Source of the DNA: a virus
IMG/VR virus record: IMGVR_UViG_3300006086_000508
Span: 1-30,456 of that record
Reading direction: 5' to 3' (one strand)
Length of the DNA: 30,456 nucleotides
Position numbers and translations under genes: made by a program. Below, piece by piece: positions 1-28,701 of this stretch (position 1 is its first letter; each line of letters opens with the position of its first letter). The notes beneath the pieces are model-generated. The model worked only from the letters and a program-made list of their open reading frames with translations, was not told where the DNA came from and ran no database searches.

Positions 1-813
1 ATGGAACGAATGATTCCGCTGCCTGTGATTTCAGTTGTTGCTGATTTCATCGCCACATTTGAAACACATGCAGGCATTGATAACTTATTTGCTTATGCTG
101 ACGCTCCCGGTGATCCCCCTGTATGTTCTAAACCTAACAAAACTCTCCATTGGCTTAGAACTATCAACAAAGAGTGTGAGGACCCGCTTGCTATCTTGGG
201 ACGGCTGATTGGCGGCTACATGGAGACCATTTTCCCCGGAAAACCAGAAACTCCAGTTGAAAGAATGTTGTTTGATTTTCAAACAAAGACAAATGAACTG
301 CTATCTCGTTATGGTCTCCAATATATCAATGGTGGATATATTTCTGATGGTTCTTCAATTTCCTCCATATCATTAAAAGAGGCCATTCATAAGCGAAACT
401 TTCCCGCTGTTGAAATGGAGTTCACCAGAGCAATTTCCAATTTATATGCTGACCCCAGAGAAGCCGTATCAGCTGCTTGCAATATTATTGAATCTACTCT
501 TAAGATTTATATTTCAGATGAAAAATTACCTACACCTGCTAAACAAGATCTTCAAGGACTTTGGAAAGTAGTTCGAGAATCATTAGGATTAGATACAAAG
601 TCCGTAGAGGATGAGGATTTGAAAAGAATTTTAAGCGGATTATATTCCTTAACCGATGGGATTGGTTCCTTGCGTACACATGCTAGTTCCGCGCATGGTG
701 CTGGAAGAAAGATTTATAATCTTAAGCCTCGGCACGCTAGGCTTGCAATAAATGCTGCACATACTCTGGTTATGTTTATCCTTGAATCTTGGGAAGAAAA
801 AAAGAAATCATGA
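1..813 (+). CDS. Abortive infection family protein (Abi_C-type)
   Basis: This 270-residue protein resembles the abortive-infection C-terminal (Abi_C) family. The diagnostic part is residues 220-265, with an LRTHASSAHG motif followed by a charged RHARLAINAAHTL helix; the family usually reads 'R...GTGHG... RHA.LAVNAA'. The N-terminal half (SKPNK, WLRTIN) also fits the family. Some proteins carrying this domain stop phage growth by disabling the infected cell; that function is inferred here. The window opens exactly on the ATG, so the upstream region is unseen; a second in-frame ATG lies at position 10. The gene is clearly AT-richer than the virion genes and sits at the attachment-site end of the prophage, a usual place for cargo genes. 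It converges with the next gene across a perfect hairpin. Confidence 0.75.
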   Translation: MERMIPLPVISVVADFIATFETHAGIDNLFAYADAPGDPPVCSKPNKTLHWLRTINKECEDPLAILGRLIGGYMETIFPGKPETPVERMLFDFQTKTNELLSRYGLQYINGGYISDGSSISSISLKEAIHKRNFPAVEMEFTRAISNLYADPREAVSAACNIIESTLKIYISDEKLPTPAKQDLQGLWKVVRESLGLDTKSVEDEDLKRILSGLYSLTDGIGSLRTHASSAHGAGRKIYNLKPRHARLAINAAHTLVMFILESWEEKKKS

Positions 814-21082: not shown

Positions 21083-22110
21083 AAAAACGATATAAGCAAC
21101 GCGCCAGCGGCGCACAGCAGGCGGCAGGTAAGCGCAAAATGTCCGTGCTGCGCTTCGGCAAGCCTGAACCGGTACTGACCACTGGCACAGATTACCGTGA
21201 CGTCTGGTATGACAACGATTTTGATCACTACAGTCTGCCGATTGACCGCCTTGCGCTGGCGCAGCTGGTAAACCTCAACGGCCAGCACGGTGGCATTCTG
21301 CACGCGCGCAAAAACATGGTGCTGTCGGATTATCTGGGCGGCGGTCTGACGTTTGACAGCCTTGAAGCTGGCGCGATGGATTTGCTGACGTTCGGGGATC
21401 TGGGGCTTGTAAAAATCCGCAACGGCTGGGGCGACGTTGTTGCCCTGGAACCCATGCCCGGCCTGTATATGCGCCGCCGCAGGGACGGTGAATTTGTGGT
21501 GCTGCAGCAGGGTGAACCGCTGGTTTACGCTGAAGAGGATGTGATTTTTATCCGGATGTATGACCCGCAGCAGCAGATTTACGGCCTGCCGGATTATATC
21601 GGCGGCATTCACTCAGCCCTGCTCAACAGCGAAGCGGTGATTTTCCGCCGCCGGTATTATCACAACGGCGCACACACCGGCGGCATTCTCTACACCACAG
21701 ACCCGAACATGACGGATGAGGTTGAAGAAGAGATAGAGCAGCAGCTGGCCAACAGCAAGGGGATCGGCAACTTCAGCACTATTCTGGTGAACATCCCCGG
21801 CGGCGATAAGGAAGGCGTGCAGTTTATCCAGATGGGGGATATTGGTGCGAAAGATGAATTTGCCAACGTGAAGAACATCAGCGCGCAGGACGTGCTGAAC
21901 GCGCACCGCTTTCCGGCTGGCCTTGCGGGGATTATTCCGCAGAACACTTCCGGCCTGGGTGACCCGGAAAAGGTGGAAGCCACCTATAAGAAAAACGAGG
22001 TTGCCCCACTCCAGCGCCGCCTCATGATGGCGGTGAACGGTGATCCGGAAGTACCGGAACACCTTCACCTGAAATTTGCCCAGCAATCAAAGAACAAGGA
22101 TGCGGCATGA
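21079..22110 (+). CDS. Q: Portal protein (gpQ)
   Basis: 343 residues, nearly the length of P2 gpQ. Family blocks: WYDNDFDHYSLPIDRLALAQ, 'HGGILHARKNMVLSDYLGGG', DLGLVKIRNGWGDVVALEPMPG, 'FIRMYDPQQQIYGLPDYIGG', ALLNSEAVIFRRRYYHNGAH and 'NAHRFPAGLAGIIPQNTSGLGD'. It forms the dodecameric channel through which DNA enters and leaves the head. I use the ATG at 21079 (ATGA overlap with the terminase stop, AAGG upstream) rather than the in-frame ATG seven codons earlier. Confidence 0.96.
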   Translation: MKKRYKQRASGAQQAAGKRKMSVLRFGKPEPVLTTGTDYRDVWYDNDFDHYSLPIDRLALAQLVNLNGQHGGILHARKNMVLSDYLGGGLTFDSLEAGAMDLLTFGDLGLVKIRNGWGDVVALEPMPGLYMRRRRDGEFVVLQQGEPLVYAEEDVIFIRMYDPQQQIYGLPDYIGGIHSALLNSEAVIFRRRYYHNGAHTGGILYTTDPNMTDEVEEEIEQQLANSKGIGNFSTILVNIPGGDKEGVQFIQMGDIGAKDEFANVKNISAQDVLNAHRFPAGLAGIIPQNTSGLGDPEKVEATYKKNEVAPLQRRLMMAVNGDPEVPEHLHLKFAQQSKNKDAA

Positions 22111-22160
22111 GGCGTAATCGGATAAAATCCAGGCAAACTTACAACGCCGGAGCCGCAAAT

Positions 22161-22421
22161 ATGCGCGTGTTAAAAATTGAGTGCCCAGAGTGCAAATCAA
22201 AGGCGGTCATCCGTAAAACAAATCGCAAACATCGCGATATTGCTGATATTTATTGCTCATGTGCAGACGTTGAATGTGGACATACTTTTGTTATGAATTT
22301 GACGTTTTCCCACACAATCAGCCCTAGCGCCAAAAAAGGCGATTTACTGATTCAGCAGGTAATCAGCGGCATGTCAGCAGAACAAAAACAGCTGACTTTA
22401 AAACTTCTGCAGGCATCTTAA
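22161..22421 (+). CDS. ogr: Ogr/Delta-type zinc-finger late transcription activator
   Basis: 86 residues with the Ogr/Delta pattern: Cys8-x2-Cys11 (IECPECKSKA) and Cys34-x4-Cys39 followed by HTFV, the four zinc ligands of P2 Ogr and P4 Delta. These proteins bind upstream of late promoters and contact RNA polymerase alpha. The C-terminal tail is longer than in P2 Ogr. The start is the ATG with GGAG 8 nt upstream; an open frame extends 18 codons to an ATG overlapping the portal stop. Unlike in P2, where ogr lies after gene D, it is placed behind the portal gene and so would be made with the packaging operon. Confidence 0.88.
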   Translation: MRVLKIECPECKSKAVIRKTNRKHRDIADIYCSCADVECGHTFVMNLTFSHTISPSAKKGDLLIQQVISGMSAEQKQLTLKLLQAS

Positions 22422-22615
22422 TAAGAACGCCCCTCACTAACTGGGGCGCTTCTCCTCGCTTCGCTTTTCAGGTCAGCTAAAAGGTCTTCCGTCAGTTCAC
22501 CCAGCCATTCATCAAGTAATGCGCGGCGTTTATCTTCCACAAGTGAATGAGTCATCATTTTCACTATAAAATCAATCCGTTCCACTTTAACTATCTGACT
22601 TAACGACGCAGACAT
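22418..22615 (-). CDS. Small LexA-controlled protein; candidate antirepressor
   Basis: 65 residues, charged and likely all-helical: MSASLSQIVKVERIDFIVKM, then SLVEDKRRALLDEWLGELTE and ADLKSEARRSAPVSEGRSY. I do not recognise the family; it does not look like DinI. The start is the ATG at 22615, with AGGGAGG 5 nt upstream; the frame continues up to an ATG at 22666, but that part overlays the promoter. A perfect LexA box lies 24 nt upstream. In phage 186 the LexA-controlled tum gene, which inactivates CI, has a comparable place at the end of the early region; by regulation and position this is the best candidate here for that job (inference). Confidence 0.6.
   Translation of the reverse strand: MSASLSQIVKVERIDFIVKMMTHSLVEDKRRALLDEWLGELTEDLLADLKSEARRSAPVSEGRSY
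22428..22448. terminator. Hairpin between convergent ogr and SOS gene
   Basis: Inverted repeat CGCCCC (22428-22433) and GGGGCG (22443-22448), 9-nt loop. It lies just after the ogr stop and inside the last codons of the leftward gene. The flanking tails are T/C-rich on + and TTCTTATT on -, so termination in both directions is possible but not strong. Confidence 0.45.
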
Positions 22616-22638
22616 TTCAACCTCCCTTACATTAAACA

Positions 22639-22654
22639 CTGTATAACCATACAG
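22639..22654 (-). promoter_or_regulatory. LexA (SOS) box
   Basis: CTGTATAACCATACAG fits the LexA consensus CTG-N10-CAG exactly, with the preferred AT-rich centre and flanks (A before, T after). On the minus strand a good -10 (TATACT) overlaps its edge, so LexA would block the promoter of the 65-aa gene until DNA damage. Confidence 0.88.
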
Positions 22655-22674
22655 TATAATATTCATTACAAAAT

Positions 22675-22698
22675 ATGAATCTTTTTTTTGAGATTCAT
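22675..22698 (-). terminator. Possible weak terminator after replication gene
   Basis: Perfect 8-bp arms ATGAATCT (22675-22682) and AGATTCAT (22691-22698), with a homopolymer-rich 8-nt loop. On the minus strand ATTTTGT follows. It lies 34 nt after the end of the replication gene and before the LexA-controlled promoter. The stem is AT-rich, so termination is uncertain. Confidence 0.35.
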
Positions 22699-22732: not shown

Positions 22733-24757
22733 CTACGGCCAGCACTCGTTTTCATTGGTATCAAGAATGTCTATCAACCGCTCCGCCTGATACTTCAAAA
22801 GGCCATGTCCCCTGAAAGAGATCGCAGCCCCACTTAATAGCCGCTCAATTTCTTCATCACTGCCTTCAAATCCCCTGGCTTTCAGCTCCACCTCTAACCT
22901 GCGGCGCTTCGGCCCCGTACAGTTATTGACAGAACTCCAAGGGGCGGCGTTGCCGCCATGAAAACCAGCCTCCGCTGGCGCTTCGGCCTGTTTGGCTATT
23001 TTTTCCCACTTAACCAGGCGGGTGAGCACTTCGGAATTTGCAAATCTAGGTGAGTAAATCCCCTGCACGCGCTGTACGTCTTCACCGTATTCATTACCCA
23101 TTTCGGTAATTTCATAACAAAGGCGGATCATCAGATCTTCGCGCGCAACCAACGGACCTCCCTGCGCCATTGTGTAGGACGCCCAGCAACTGGCCACTGA
23201 CGCAGAGGCCAGCACCGCATCCATCTGCGGGTTATCCAACTGCGCATCACCCAGACGGCGCAGTTCACGCCAGACTGTGACCGGCGCGCCGCCTATCTGC
23301 TGGAACTGACGGATACGCCAACGGGACGCCCATGCAGAAACAGCCTTCGCCATTTCACGCATGTTCTCGCCGGTTTCATCGTCTTTCTCACCTTCCAGCG
23401 CAAAGCCGTCGATATTTTTTGAAATGTATTTCGCTATGTAGCCCGTTGCGCTGCCCTTCTCAGGATCGATAGGCTCAGCATGAAAGCGGGCCTTCCGTGA
23501 AGCATCAGAGTTCATTTCGTGCGCGTCTTCTTCCCGTGCATAGCGGGCCATGATATCGCCCACACGCTCGATGTTTTCAGGCAGCATAAACAGCAACATA
23601 TGCCAGTGCGGCGTTCCGTCGTGATGAGGCTCAACCACACGAAAACCAAAAACATGAATATCCTTACGGGAAAGCGCGGCGCGTATTTTTGACCAGACCT
23701 TGCAAAGATACCGCTGCGTATCTTTGGGACTGGAGCCGTTCCATTGCGAGACAAAACCGCCCTTGCTGTATGCGGCGTGGAACTTTGAAGGCGCGGTCAG
23801 GGTATAGAACATACCCACGCATCCCGTTTCGTCAGCTACGTCTTCAAAGCCGCGCATTCTGGTCATTAGCTCACGGCGGCGGATCGCCGGATTGGCCACG
23901 CTGCGGTTAACCATTTCATCCATCGCAATCCGGTCACCATCCTGATTAATCAGGTCGAATCGCTTCAACGCCTCACGGTTTCGCCTCTTCTGCTCTACCC
24001 ATTCGGCCAGCGTTCCGCGTGAGACATAAGGCGAGGCTGATTTCTGTACCTGCCCTACCGCTATAGCCATGTGCTCACGCTGCAGATCGCGCATCTGCTT
24101 TAATCGCCCACGCCACCATTCAGGCGCTGTCATGCGCAAAATGCCCGACTGCGCCTTACGCAACGACAACTCACCTTTACTGGAACCGTATTCCGCCCAG
24201 TAAGGTGGCTGCGTGCCTGTCAGCGCAGCCAGCTCAGCCACATAGCGATATGCAACGCGGGTTACAGTCACTTCATCCGATTCCTGCGGCAGTGAAACTT
24301 TGCTGACAAAATCGGCCATGCTTAGCGAAAGGAAGGAAGCGATTTTATAGGACAGATCGCGCAGCTCCTGCCGGTCTAACGTTGGCAGGCGATCAAGCTG
24401 TTTGATGAAAGGCAGTTCATGCTGTGCCGCATCGTTAATGCGGTAGCGGCTGCGGACAAGCTGCAGGCGTGGTAATACATTCTGGCCAACTGTCTGGCGA
24501 AGAAATGCATTAGCCCGGCGACGGCCATTTTGTGCAGAAAATATTTTGGTGTAACGGTCAGCAAAATAACCGGCAAGGTAATCCGGAATTTCGTGTAAGA
24601 AAGGGCTGCGCCAGTCATGGTCTTCGGGATTAAGATTCCATAACCGACGCTCTGAAAGAGACATGCCAGCAGGCGCAGACATGCCAAAAAACTCACGCCG
24701 CTGACGATCTACGGCGTGGTATTCACCCTGCAACAAATCAGGCTGCATTTCAGACAT
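22733..24757 (-). CDS. A: Rolling-circle replication endonuclease (gpA)
   Basis: 674 residues, P2 gpA (Phage_GPA) family of HUH nucleases. Motif 1 is FYTLTAPSKFH (about 317-327). Motif 2, the metal site, is His384-Trp-His386 in GTPHWHMLLF. Motif 3 is Tyr440-x3-Tyr444 in ATGYIAKYISKN; the paired tyrosines act alternately to cut and rejoin the strand, at nearly the P2 positions (Y450/Y454). It nicks the phage origin, which in P2 lies within the gene itself, and starts rolling-circle replication. The start is the ATG at 24757, overlapping the upstream gene by 8 nt, with AGG before it. Confidence 0.95.
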   Translation of the reverse strand: MSEMQPDLLQGEYHAVDRQRREFFGMSAPAGMSLSERRLWNLNPEDHDWRSPFLHEIPDYLAGYFADRYTKIFSAQNGRRRANAFLRQTVGQNVLPRLQLVRSRYRINDAAQHELPFIKQLDRLPTLDRQELRDLSYKIASFLSLSMADFVSKVSLPQESDEVTVTRVAYRYVAELAALTGTQPPYWAEYGSSKGELSLRKAQSGILRMTAPEWWRGRLKQMRDLQREHMAIAVGQVQKSASPYVSRGTLAEWVEQKRRNREALKRFDLINQDGDRIAMDEMVNRSVANPAIRRRELMTRMRGFEDVADETGCVGMFYTLTAPSKFHAAYSKGGFVSQWNGSSPKDTQRYLCKVWSKIRAALSRKDIHVFGFRVVEPHHDGTPHWHMLLFMLPENIERVGDIMARYAREEDAHEMNSDASRKARFHAEPIDPEKGSATGYIAKYISKNIDGFALEGEKDDETGENMREMAKAVSAWASRWRIRQFQQIGGAPVTVWRELRRLGDAQLDNPQMDAVLASASVASCWASYTMAQGGPLVAREDLMIRLCYEITEMGNEYGEDVQRVQGIYSPRFANSEVLTRLVKWEKIAKQAEAPAEAGFHGGNAAPWSSVNNCTGPKRRRLEVELKARGFEGSDEEIERLLSGAAISFRGHGLLKYQAERLIDILDTNENECWP

Positions 24758-25109
24758 GGGCAACCTGCTGCGCACTCAGCTTTTCAAACGCGACATGAGT
24801 CAGTTCCGTAAGACGTCGCGTTTCGCTGACGAACGCGGCGAACGTATCCATATCACCCTGACGCACCAGCCGCCCGGTGACGTCCGAAATGAGATCGCGC
24901 AGCAGCAAAATCTTACTACTGTAAATAGCCATGGTCTGCGGCACCTGCTCCCGCACACCCTCGACGTCCAACCATCCCAATCTTTCCAGCGCAACAAGCG
25001 CGTCTTCGCCTGGCTGCTTATTTCTGATTGCACGGATAAAATAAACATCATCAATCTTTACTCTCACAGCGCTGCGCTCTCTGCTTTTGAGAGGTGGCTT
25101 AATGCTCAT
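24750..25109 (-). CDS. Early phage protein, possibly DUF5347-like
   Basis: 119 residues: AVRVKIDDVYFIRAIRNKQPGEDALVALERLGWLD-type N-terminal block (around residues 14-50) and a helical C-terminus (LLLRDLISDVTGRLVRQ, FAAFVSETRRLTELTHVAFE). Small proteins with this layout precede gene A in P2-like phages; I think it belongs to DUF5347, but I am not sure. No enzymatic motif is visible. The start overlaps the stop of the DUF3850 gene by 11 nt and the end overlaps gene A, so it is part of one translationally linked early operon. Confidence 0.6.
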   Translation of the reverse strand: MSIKPPLKSRERSAVRVKIDDVYFIRAIRNKQPGEDALVALERLGWLDVEGVREQVPQTMAIYSSKILLLRDLISDVTGRLVRQGDMDTFAAFVSETRRLTELTHVAFEKLSAQQVAHV

Positions 25110-25401
25110 AGCTCACCCCGAAATACATATAACTGCGCGCATCTGCTGGACTGACAGGCTTGATTGACAAAACAGCATATTCATAGGCATTTGGTATTAC
25201 GACGTCTGCAGGCAGGACGTGAGTTACAACCGCCGCCCACTCCCGCCCGGTATACTGATCGTTAACGCACTCCAACAGCGCCAGAACATCCCCGGCCTTA
25301 AAATCGCGGTCATTTTTCCGCAGTTCAGCTTTTTTACTTCCATCAAGCACCGAATTTAAATGCTCAGGAGCTATTTTGAGGTGATGCTCTCTTATTGCCA
25401 T
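25099..25401 (-). CDS. DUF3850 (ASCH/PUA-like) protein
   Basis: 100 residues beginning with HHLKIAPEHLNSVLDGSKKAELRKNDRDF, the signature of DUF3850, then GDVLALLECVNDQYTGREWA and a beta-rich end (VVTHVLP, YAVLSIKPV). The fold is related to ASCH/PUA domains, which bind RNA or modified nucleosides; no specific role is established for phage members that I can rely on. It is encoded in the early operon and overlaps both neighbours by about 10 nt. Confidence 0.85.
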   Translation of the reverse strand: MAIREHHLKIAPEHLNSVLDGSKKAELRKNDRDFKAGDVLALLECVNDQYTGREWAAVVTHVLPADVVIPNAYEYAVLSIKPVSPADARSYMYFGVSYEH

Positions 25402-27437: not shown

Positions 27438-27545
27438 AGGGCAAACTCCTGATTCGTTTGAATGCAGCAACATTCAACAATATTCACGTTTATCGAACTT
27501 ACAACACGGAGACTAATTCGACTTAATCGAATTTGCAACCAATAA
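27438..27545. promoter_or_regulatory. Lysis-lysogeny switch region
   Basis: The divergent cI (+) and cox (-) genes leave 108 nt that must hold both promoters and operators. A perfect palindrome AATTCGA-CTTAA-TCGAATT spans 27515-27533. Related half-sites occur nearby (ATTCGTTTGAAT around 27453-27464 and TATCGAA around 27491). On the minus strand TTGTAA and TATTGT are spaced 16 nt apart and could be the early promoter. No clear ribosome binding site precedes the cI ATG. Confidence 0.6.
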
Positions 27546-28133
27546 ATGCGAGATACTGGAAAATTCACCCTACCAACTGATAGCGCATTGGTCTTAGATC
27601 GTGTTTGTGAGGCTTACGGCTTCAGCACATCCCTGCAGCTGGCAGATCATTTAGAAATGGCTGCAAGTAGCATGTCAGCCAGAAGAAAGCGCGGCACTTT
27701 CCCGGCGGATATTGTTGTGCAGTGCGTACTGGAAACCGGTGTTAGCTTGGAGTGGCTAACAACCGGTTCAGGCAAAAAGTTTGAAGATGATTCGTTAGAT
27801 ATACTAAAACTACCGCGCAAAAAACTTATTGAAGGGAAGCTGTTCGATTCTGGATTTGTAATGCTTGATAAAGCCTTCTTTCGCGAAGGTGCACCATTAC
27901 CTACAGATGCCTTTTGCCTTTTAGACGAGAACGCCCAGTACGTTATTGATAGAAAATTCTCTGAAATATTCGATGGGGAATGGCTGGTCAATATCGAAGG
28001 TAAAGTGAGCGTCAGAACTTTAGGCCGCATACCCATCAGGAAAATCAGAGTTAGCGGAATTGGCATGGCATTTGATTGCAATATTGATGATATAGAAGTG
28101 CTGGGACGCATAGCGTTAAAGATTTCTAACTAG
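27546..28133 (+). CDS. cI: CI-type phage repressor
   Basis: 195 residues. The N-terminal domain (about 10-70) has the Phage_CI_repr helix-turn-helix: VLDRVCEAYGFSTSLQLADHL, 'MAASSMSARRKRGTFPADIVVQC', GVSLEWLTTGSG. The C-terminal domain (about 95-195) is beta-rich with the layout of 186 CI (FREGAPLPTDAFCLLDE, 'DGEWLVNIEGKVSVRTLGRIP'). I see no Ser-Lys peptidase pair of LexA-type repressors, so self-cleavage on DNA damage is unlikely and induction should need an antirepressor. The ATG has no visible ribosome binding site, suggesting weak or leaderless translation. Confidence 0.9.
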   Translation: MRDTGKFTLPTDSALVLDRVCEAYGFSTSLQLADHLEMAASSMSARRKRGTFPADIVVQCVLETGVSLEWLTTGSGKKFEDDSLDILKLPRKKLIEGKLFDSGFVMLDKAFFREGAPLPTDAFCLLDENAQYVIDRKFSEIFDGEWLVNIEGKVSVRTLGRIPIRKIRVSGIGMAFDCNIDDIEVLGRIALKISN

Positions 28134-28149
28134 CGAAGGAATGATTGAC

Positions 28150-28701
28150 ATGATTAATTTTAAGACTGCAACACAGCAGCAGCTGAAAGAAGAATATAAA
28201 AGACTTGCCGAAGTTGTTAAGAACTTTTCGTTTGGCACAAAAAAGGAATTTTACCATCTACCTAATATCATTGGTGACAATGAGCAACCTCTGGCTGTTG
28301 CAAGCGGCATGATGGACGGTAATACATGGCTTATCACATTAACTAACCAACGTGTAATATTTCTAGATAAAGGAATGCTGTTTGGTGTGAAACAGGTTGA
28401 TATTAACCTGAAAGATATTGTAAGCGTTGGCGGACAAACGGGAATGATTTTGGGTTCAATCACAATTTCGACTAGCGGCCAGAATTACACTATTAAGGAC
28501 GTTGCTAAACAAAGCGTCATTCCTTTTACTAACTTAGTTAATTCCACACGCAATAACTTAAACACCCCAGCCGAAAAAATCACATCGTCGAATGATAACG
28601 ATATTGTTGCACAGCTCGAACGACTGGCATCGTTAAAAGAAAAAGGCATTCTTACTGAAGAAGAATTCTCGCAACAGAAACAAAGAATCCTCAATTCATA
28701 A
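28150..28701 (+). CDS. PH-domain (YokE-like) and SHOCT-domain protein
   Basis: 183 residues from the ATG at 28150, 9 nt after AAGGA; an ATG at 28141 touches that site and is less likely. Residues about 40-135 form a bacterial PH (YokE/bPH_8) domain: NTWLITLTNQRVIFLDKGML, 'GVKQVDINLKDIVSVGGQTG', ITISTSGQNYTIKDV. The C-terminal ~30 residues are a SHOCT motif (IVAQLERLASLKEKGILTEEEF-type helix pair). No enzyme motif is visible. It lies between cI and int on the same strand with tiny gaps and so should be expressed in the lysogen. Its role is unknown; exclusion of other phages or lysogenic conversion are possibilities. Confidence 0.82.
   Translation: MINFKTATQQQLKEEYKRLAEVVKNFSFGTKKEFYHLPNIIGDNEQPLAVASGMMDGNTWLITLTNQRVIFLDKGMLFGVKQVDINLKDIVSVGGQTGMILGSITISTSGQNYTIKDVAKQSVIPFTNLVNSTRNNLNTPAEKITSSNDNDIVAQLERLASLKEKGILTEEEFSQQKQRILNS

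Follow-up and report, generated by a model that had tools for sequence, protein, structure and literature searches.

Phage 186 encodes the 146-aa protein Tum, which binds the CI repressor and prevents it from binding to its operators (PMC3121763) and which, when induced by UV, relieves pR from repression by CI (PMC7708051). The tum gene lies directly after gene A in a phage with a 186-type CI and covers, as a single gene, a TumA part fused to a DinI-like C-terminal half. In phage PSP3, these parts are annotated as the separate genes tumA and tumB, of which tumA is noted as "similar to 5' end 186 tum"; a personal communication quoted in PMC3121763 assigns the antirepressor function to the upstream half and describes the downstream half as a DinI homologue. 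PSP3 TumA (PHROG 1993) is a short stand-alone frame directly after gene A and has been linked to UV induction. Similarly, Fels-2 encodes STM2728, and the DinI-family gene after it carries a note of similarity to PSP3 TumB; E. coli HS encodes ECHS_RS04495, again with a separate DinI-like gene (tumB) next. Both proteins are 62 aa long (PHROG 698), and their genes lie downstream of A with a LexA box upstream. Deletion of tum or an uncleavable LexA abolishes induction of the E. coli HS prophage DuoHS (PMC12055606), which has a split tumA (62 aa) plus dinI; the text of that study leaves open which of the two is its "tum". GfoA and GftA of Gifsy prophages are likewise small and LexA controlled and act on noncleaved repressors.

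A 65-aa gene downstream of gene A

The window analyzed here is the whole stretch of 30,456 nucleotides, positions 1 to 30,456 of the IMG/VR record IMGVR_UViG_3300006086_000508, and represents a P2/186-like prophage whose nearest relatives with a named host are found in Erwinia phyllosphaerae and an uncultured Pantoea. As the original prediction held, a 65-aa gene lies between the replication gene (Phage_GPA) and ogr (Ogr_Delta), just downstream of gene A like tum of 186 and its counterparts in PSP3 and Fels-2 (Table 1). Because ogr overlaps the stop end of this convergent gene by 4 bases, there is no room for a dinI or tumB gene. Comparison to 11 relatives revealed purifying selection (pN/pS 0 to 0.44), and the product is predicted to form a two-helix hairpin (residues 5–23 and 28–56; pLDDT 87.4).

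Table 1. Features of the tumA-type locus and the immunity region, in coordinates of the window.
Feature	Position	Strand	Basis or context
ogr-type late activator (Ogr_Delta)	22107–22421	+	downstream of the tumA-type gene, convergent
tumA-type gene, 65 aa	22418–22615	-	ORF, homology to the Tum N-terminus, pN/pS, structure model
Ribosome-binding site AAGGGAGG	22621–22628	-	read from sequence
LexA (SOS) box TACTGTATGGTTATACAGTG	22637–22656	-	sequence, 20-mer score, conservation in related loci
Probable -10 hexamer TATACT	22653–22658	-	inferred from sequence; overlaps the LexA box
Replication gene A (Phage_GPA)	22733–24775	-	immediately precedes the tumA-type gene; same order in 186, PSP3, and Fels-2
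Candidate CI operator, copy 1 of 24-bp direct repeat	27482–27505	+	cI-cox/apl gap; function inferred
Candidate CI operator, copy 2 of 24-bp direct repeat	27516–27539	+	cI-cox/apl gap; function inferred
CI repressor, 186 type, presumed target of the TumA-type protein	27546–28133	+	PF07022 + PF16452

The promoter region of this gene carries a LexA box, as originally predicted. Its core, CTGTATAACCATACAG at 22639–22654, is the sole CTGTN8ACAG in the window, where 0.26 would be expected; such a core alone is not rare, being present in 21 of 100 shuffles. The box as a whole (20-mer) is near-consensus with 16 of 20 consensus positions, a score reached by none of 200 simulated Markov-1 windows, and the runner-up CTG..CAG site in the window scores 11/20. 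Each of the 15 related prophage loci retrieved initially (L005–L019) has kept a box scoring 16 to 18 at a distance of 40 to 42 bp from the start codon, and throughout our locus survey each TumA locus without DinI has one (16 to 19 matches, 38 to 43 bp before the start). When the family of the L005 host was searched by protein alone, 54 of 295 genomes were found to carry a TumA, and 57 of the 64 matches in the stretches retrieved have a LexA box within 130 bp, compared to 371 of 20,000 random positions (1.9%); four of the seven matches lacking a box are fragments or second matches of a broken or fused frame. Sequence and conservation of the box thus support the proposed SOS control. We also noted three TumA-like ORFs without a recognizable LexA box (L253, L255, and L243), two of which (L253 and L255) lie beside a 186-type CI.

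The box takes a similar position in both phages, at -38 in 186 and at -41 in the window, and the annotated -10 element of p95 in phage 186 overlaps its LexA box just like the probable TATACT hexamer here, though a promoter scan did not return this -10 at 22653–22658. Just upstream of the promoter, positions 22675–22698 hold a perfect 8-bp inverted repeat (ATGAATCT / AGATTCAT) with a spacer of 8 bp. A second LexA-like box (17/20) was seen in Escherichia phage ev129 (L021:1441–1460), 55 bp before an integrase ORF, which suggests possible SOS control of this integrase.

Homology to the N-terminal half of 186 Tum

At the level of sequence, the 65-aa protein is related to 186 Tum through the N-terminal half of the latter (residues approximately 1 to 50) and belongs to the same family, TumA. 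This relationship is not evident from direct comparison, as pairwise BLASTP of the two proteins gave no match and 186 Tum was not detected using the window's clade alone. A bridge is provided by Yersinia phage vB_YenM_324, in which the product of an unannotated ORF downstream of A is 46% identical to 186 Tum (pairwise E 1e-12) and 36% identical to the window protein (pairwise E 2e-8). Furthermore, an HMM built from 18 relatives, with 186 and PSP3 left out, scores the N-terminal 60 residues of 186 Tum at 30.0 bits, compared to 12.5 bits for the best of 20,000 shuffles. Independently of this HMM, the same two PHROG families match the window protein (PHROG 698 at 1.3e-7; PHROG 8554 at 7.7e-5) and the N-terminus of 186 Tum (2.7e-5 and 1.4e-11, respectively). 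Fels-2 STM2728 and ECHS_RS04495 are about 31% to 37% identical to the window protein, and tblastn against phage records found matches of 36% to 38% identity in Fels-2, SopEphi, SEN8, and Klebsiella phages. PSP3 TumA is too diverged for direct detection, scoring just 2.9 bits with the 18-relative HMM (equalled by 320 of 20,000 shuffles), and is tied to the window family solely via 186, to which PHROG 1993 links it (2.7e-32 for PSP3 TumA and 1.4e-22 for 186 Tum). PHROGs 698, 8554, and 1993 are all listed as unknown function.

M1, R13, and E40 are invariant across the aligned groups; a pattern scan was precluded by the high diversity of the whole-family alignment. Structure added little: Foldseek of the window protein against viral models gave 407 weak matches with none at E ≤ 0.001, which is uninformative because of the simple shape of a two-helix hairpin, and the model of a full 186-type Tum is poor (pLDDT 62.7), so that we base no structural claim on its two predicted N-terminal helices (3–22 and 28–46). 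A PDB sequence search with the window protein found no match, no Pfam or NCBIfam model covers it, and the tumA-type gene has no DNA-level match in E. coli genomes. Sequence searches against 186 Tum, proposed at the outset as a check, were thus informative through profiles and the bridging ORF, not pairwise or by fold, and no clear match to an unrelated family emerged.

TumA with and without DinI

Compared to 186 Tum, the window protein corresponds to the front half, followed by a short C-terminal tail of its own. The original prediction had correctly described it as much shorter than Tum (65 versus 146 aa), but this is no sign of unrelatedness, since the absence of the DinI half alone explains the difference. 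This half is neither fused to the window protein nor encoded as an adjacent tumB. Among 194 TumA matches in the loci surveyed, 79 are fused to DinI, 84 are followed by a dinI-like gene, and 31 have no detected DinI, a count that may be too high given the narrow DinI profile used in this survey and in the search of related genomes. The Fels-2-type module of tumA plus dinI occurs in 1,070 of 5,426 complete E. coli genomes.

Because our custom profile is narrow, the assignment of the window's group as DinI-less rests on the Pfam model (PF06183). This model has no match anywhere in the window record, confirming that the 65-aa protein is not DinI-like. Nor does it match in any of 12 records belonging to the groups of the window, ESSI-2/ev129, and YenM_324, with Fels-2 and 186 giving the expected scores; the front half of Tum thus stands alone in these groups. 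In Cronobacter phage ESSI-2, Escherichia phage ev129, and Yersinia phage vB_YenM_324, the TumA ORF occupies the interval that separates A from the next convergent gene; it has a LexA box, and, like in the window, there is no DinI anywhere in the record. Their TumAs belong to different sequence clades and are unannotated or hypothetical in the records. In the L005 host, DinI is encoded on a contig other than the one that harbors the prophage gene. We found no description of a TumA without DinI in the literature searched, which did not cover most subscription journals. On the annotation side, PHROG 189 (match at L003:9083–9523) is named "RecA filament binding protein DinI", and its profile spans the whole of 186 Tum, so that fused Tum antirepressors become annotated as DinI.

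The CI repressor and the unequal divergence of TumA and CI

In agreement with the original prediction, the domain search found no peptidase domain in the CI of the window, which is composed of PF07022 and PF16452. Its best PDB match is 2fjr (entry "Repressor protein CI"), which is 186 CI, and LexA-type self-cleavage is therefore not expected. A 186-type CI is also present in every DinI-less TumA locus whose retrieved stretch reaches the cI region. The two copies of the 24-bp direct repeat that we consider candidate operators are 34 bp apart and, within the window, are confined to the cI-cox gap. Between cI and int, a gene at 28141–28701 (+) encodes a protein with bPH_3 (bacterial PH) and SHOCT domains (PHROG 2700) that is likely expressed in the lysogen together with cI.

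Within the clade, TumA and CI do not diverge together. The TumA of L005 is identical to that of the window (100%) with CIs only 62% to 69% identical, L007, L010, and L013–L015 combine TumAs of 94% to 100% with CIs of 56% to 67%, and L006 shows the reverse (TumA 69%, CI 86% to 88%). These mismatched identities indicate exchange of the immunity region and of the A-tumA-ogr segment, which in turn suggests that one TumA may act on several CI types. It is conceivable, though we consider it rather doubtful, that a DinI-free TumA serves as the single antirepressor for many immunity types, as hinted by near-identical TumAs with CIs differing by 31% to 44% in Erwinia and Pantoea. The last approximately 50 residues of CI are among the most conserved stretches in the groups compared, a conservation that may stem from TumA binding or from CI assembly.

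Function of the 65-aa protein

Taken together, the gene very probably encodes a TumA-type antirepressor, i.e., a LexA-controlled counterpart of the Tum N-terminus that would inactivate CI after DNA damage. By analogy to its relatives, we expect SOS expression, CI binding, and prophage induction to proceed as follows: LexA would hold the gene off in the lysogen until DNA damage, when RecA would stimulate LexA cleavage and the 65-aa protein would be produced. This protein would then inactivate CI, which lacks a self-cleavage domain, and, with CI off its operators, the early lytic promoter would fire. In the window's group, the antirepressor would act alone without a DinI-like half. Counting against this interpretation are the missing pairwise similarity to 186 Tum, the poor score of PSP3 TumA as the member with a stated antirepressor assignment, and the separate divergence of TumA and CI, which weakens a naive co-evolution argument for their binding.

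The latter pattern would also be compatible with an SOS-induced accessory protein that targets the host (e.g., RecA, cell division, or replication) and not CI. Several LexA-controlled phage genes, including DinI-like ones, act on host SOS functions and set a precedent for this. Nevertheless, we consider such a role improbable since the window protein is homologous to the N-terminal half of Tum and not to DinI, since TumA co-occurs with 186-type CI across distant groups, and since the window's CI would have no known SOS route without the tumA-type gene.

The original prediction was that of a new type of antirepressor, possibly an unrelated solution to the task of Tum. An antirepressor remains the most likely function, but its novelty did not hold up, as the protein falls into the same family as the front half of 186 Tum and Fels-2 STM2728. 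Independent evolution might still be argued from the absence of a BLAST match to 186 Tum and from the different lengths, yet it is contradicted by the profile results and by a graded chain of homologues that leads to the Tum N-terminus with the same gene position and the same placement of the LexA box, leaving it a very small chance. We assign just as little probability to a small antirepressor of the GfoA/GftA family that moved from a Gifsy-type phage into a P2-like one. Size, LexA control, and action on noncleaved repressors (PMC3121763) would fit, but the TumA profile found nothing among all ORFs of Gifsy-1 (best E 0.76), the one Gifsy prophage compared, so that no sequence relation is detectable there. 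In its mode of action, the TumA-type protein probably works like GfoA and GftA.

Other genes of the prophage

At the prophage end, positions 1–813 (+) encode a protein of 270 aa that contains an Abi_C domain (PF14355, 4e-22) and matches AbiJ in PADLOC (7e-15), marking a candidate abortive-infection defense gene. Adjoining it is a gene for a 218-aa DUF4760 protein (858–1514, -), and a 100-aa DUF3850/ASCH-type protein is encoded in the early region (25099–25401, -).

Implications

Given its relationship to the front half of 186 Tum, the tumA-type gene most likely wakes this Erwinia/Pantoea prophage by a known mechanism. This would provide a likely function for PHROG families 698, 8554, and 1993 and for genes annotated as "hypothetical". 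If a single TumA indeed served many immunity types, the TumA of one prophage would also free heteroimmune prophages in the same cell from repression, and one would expect it to bind CI at the conserved C-terminal face. With the stand-alone TumAs, nature offers a way to test whether the Tum front half suffices for induction and how promiscuous it is among CI types.
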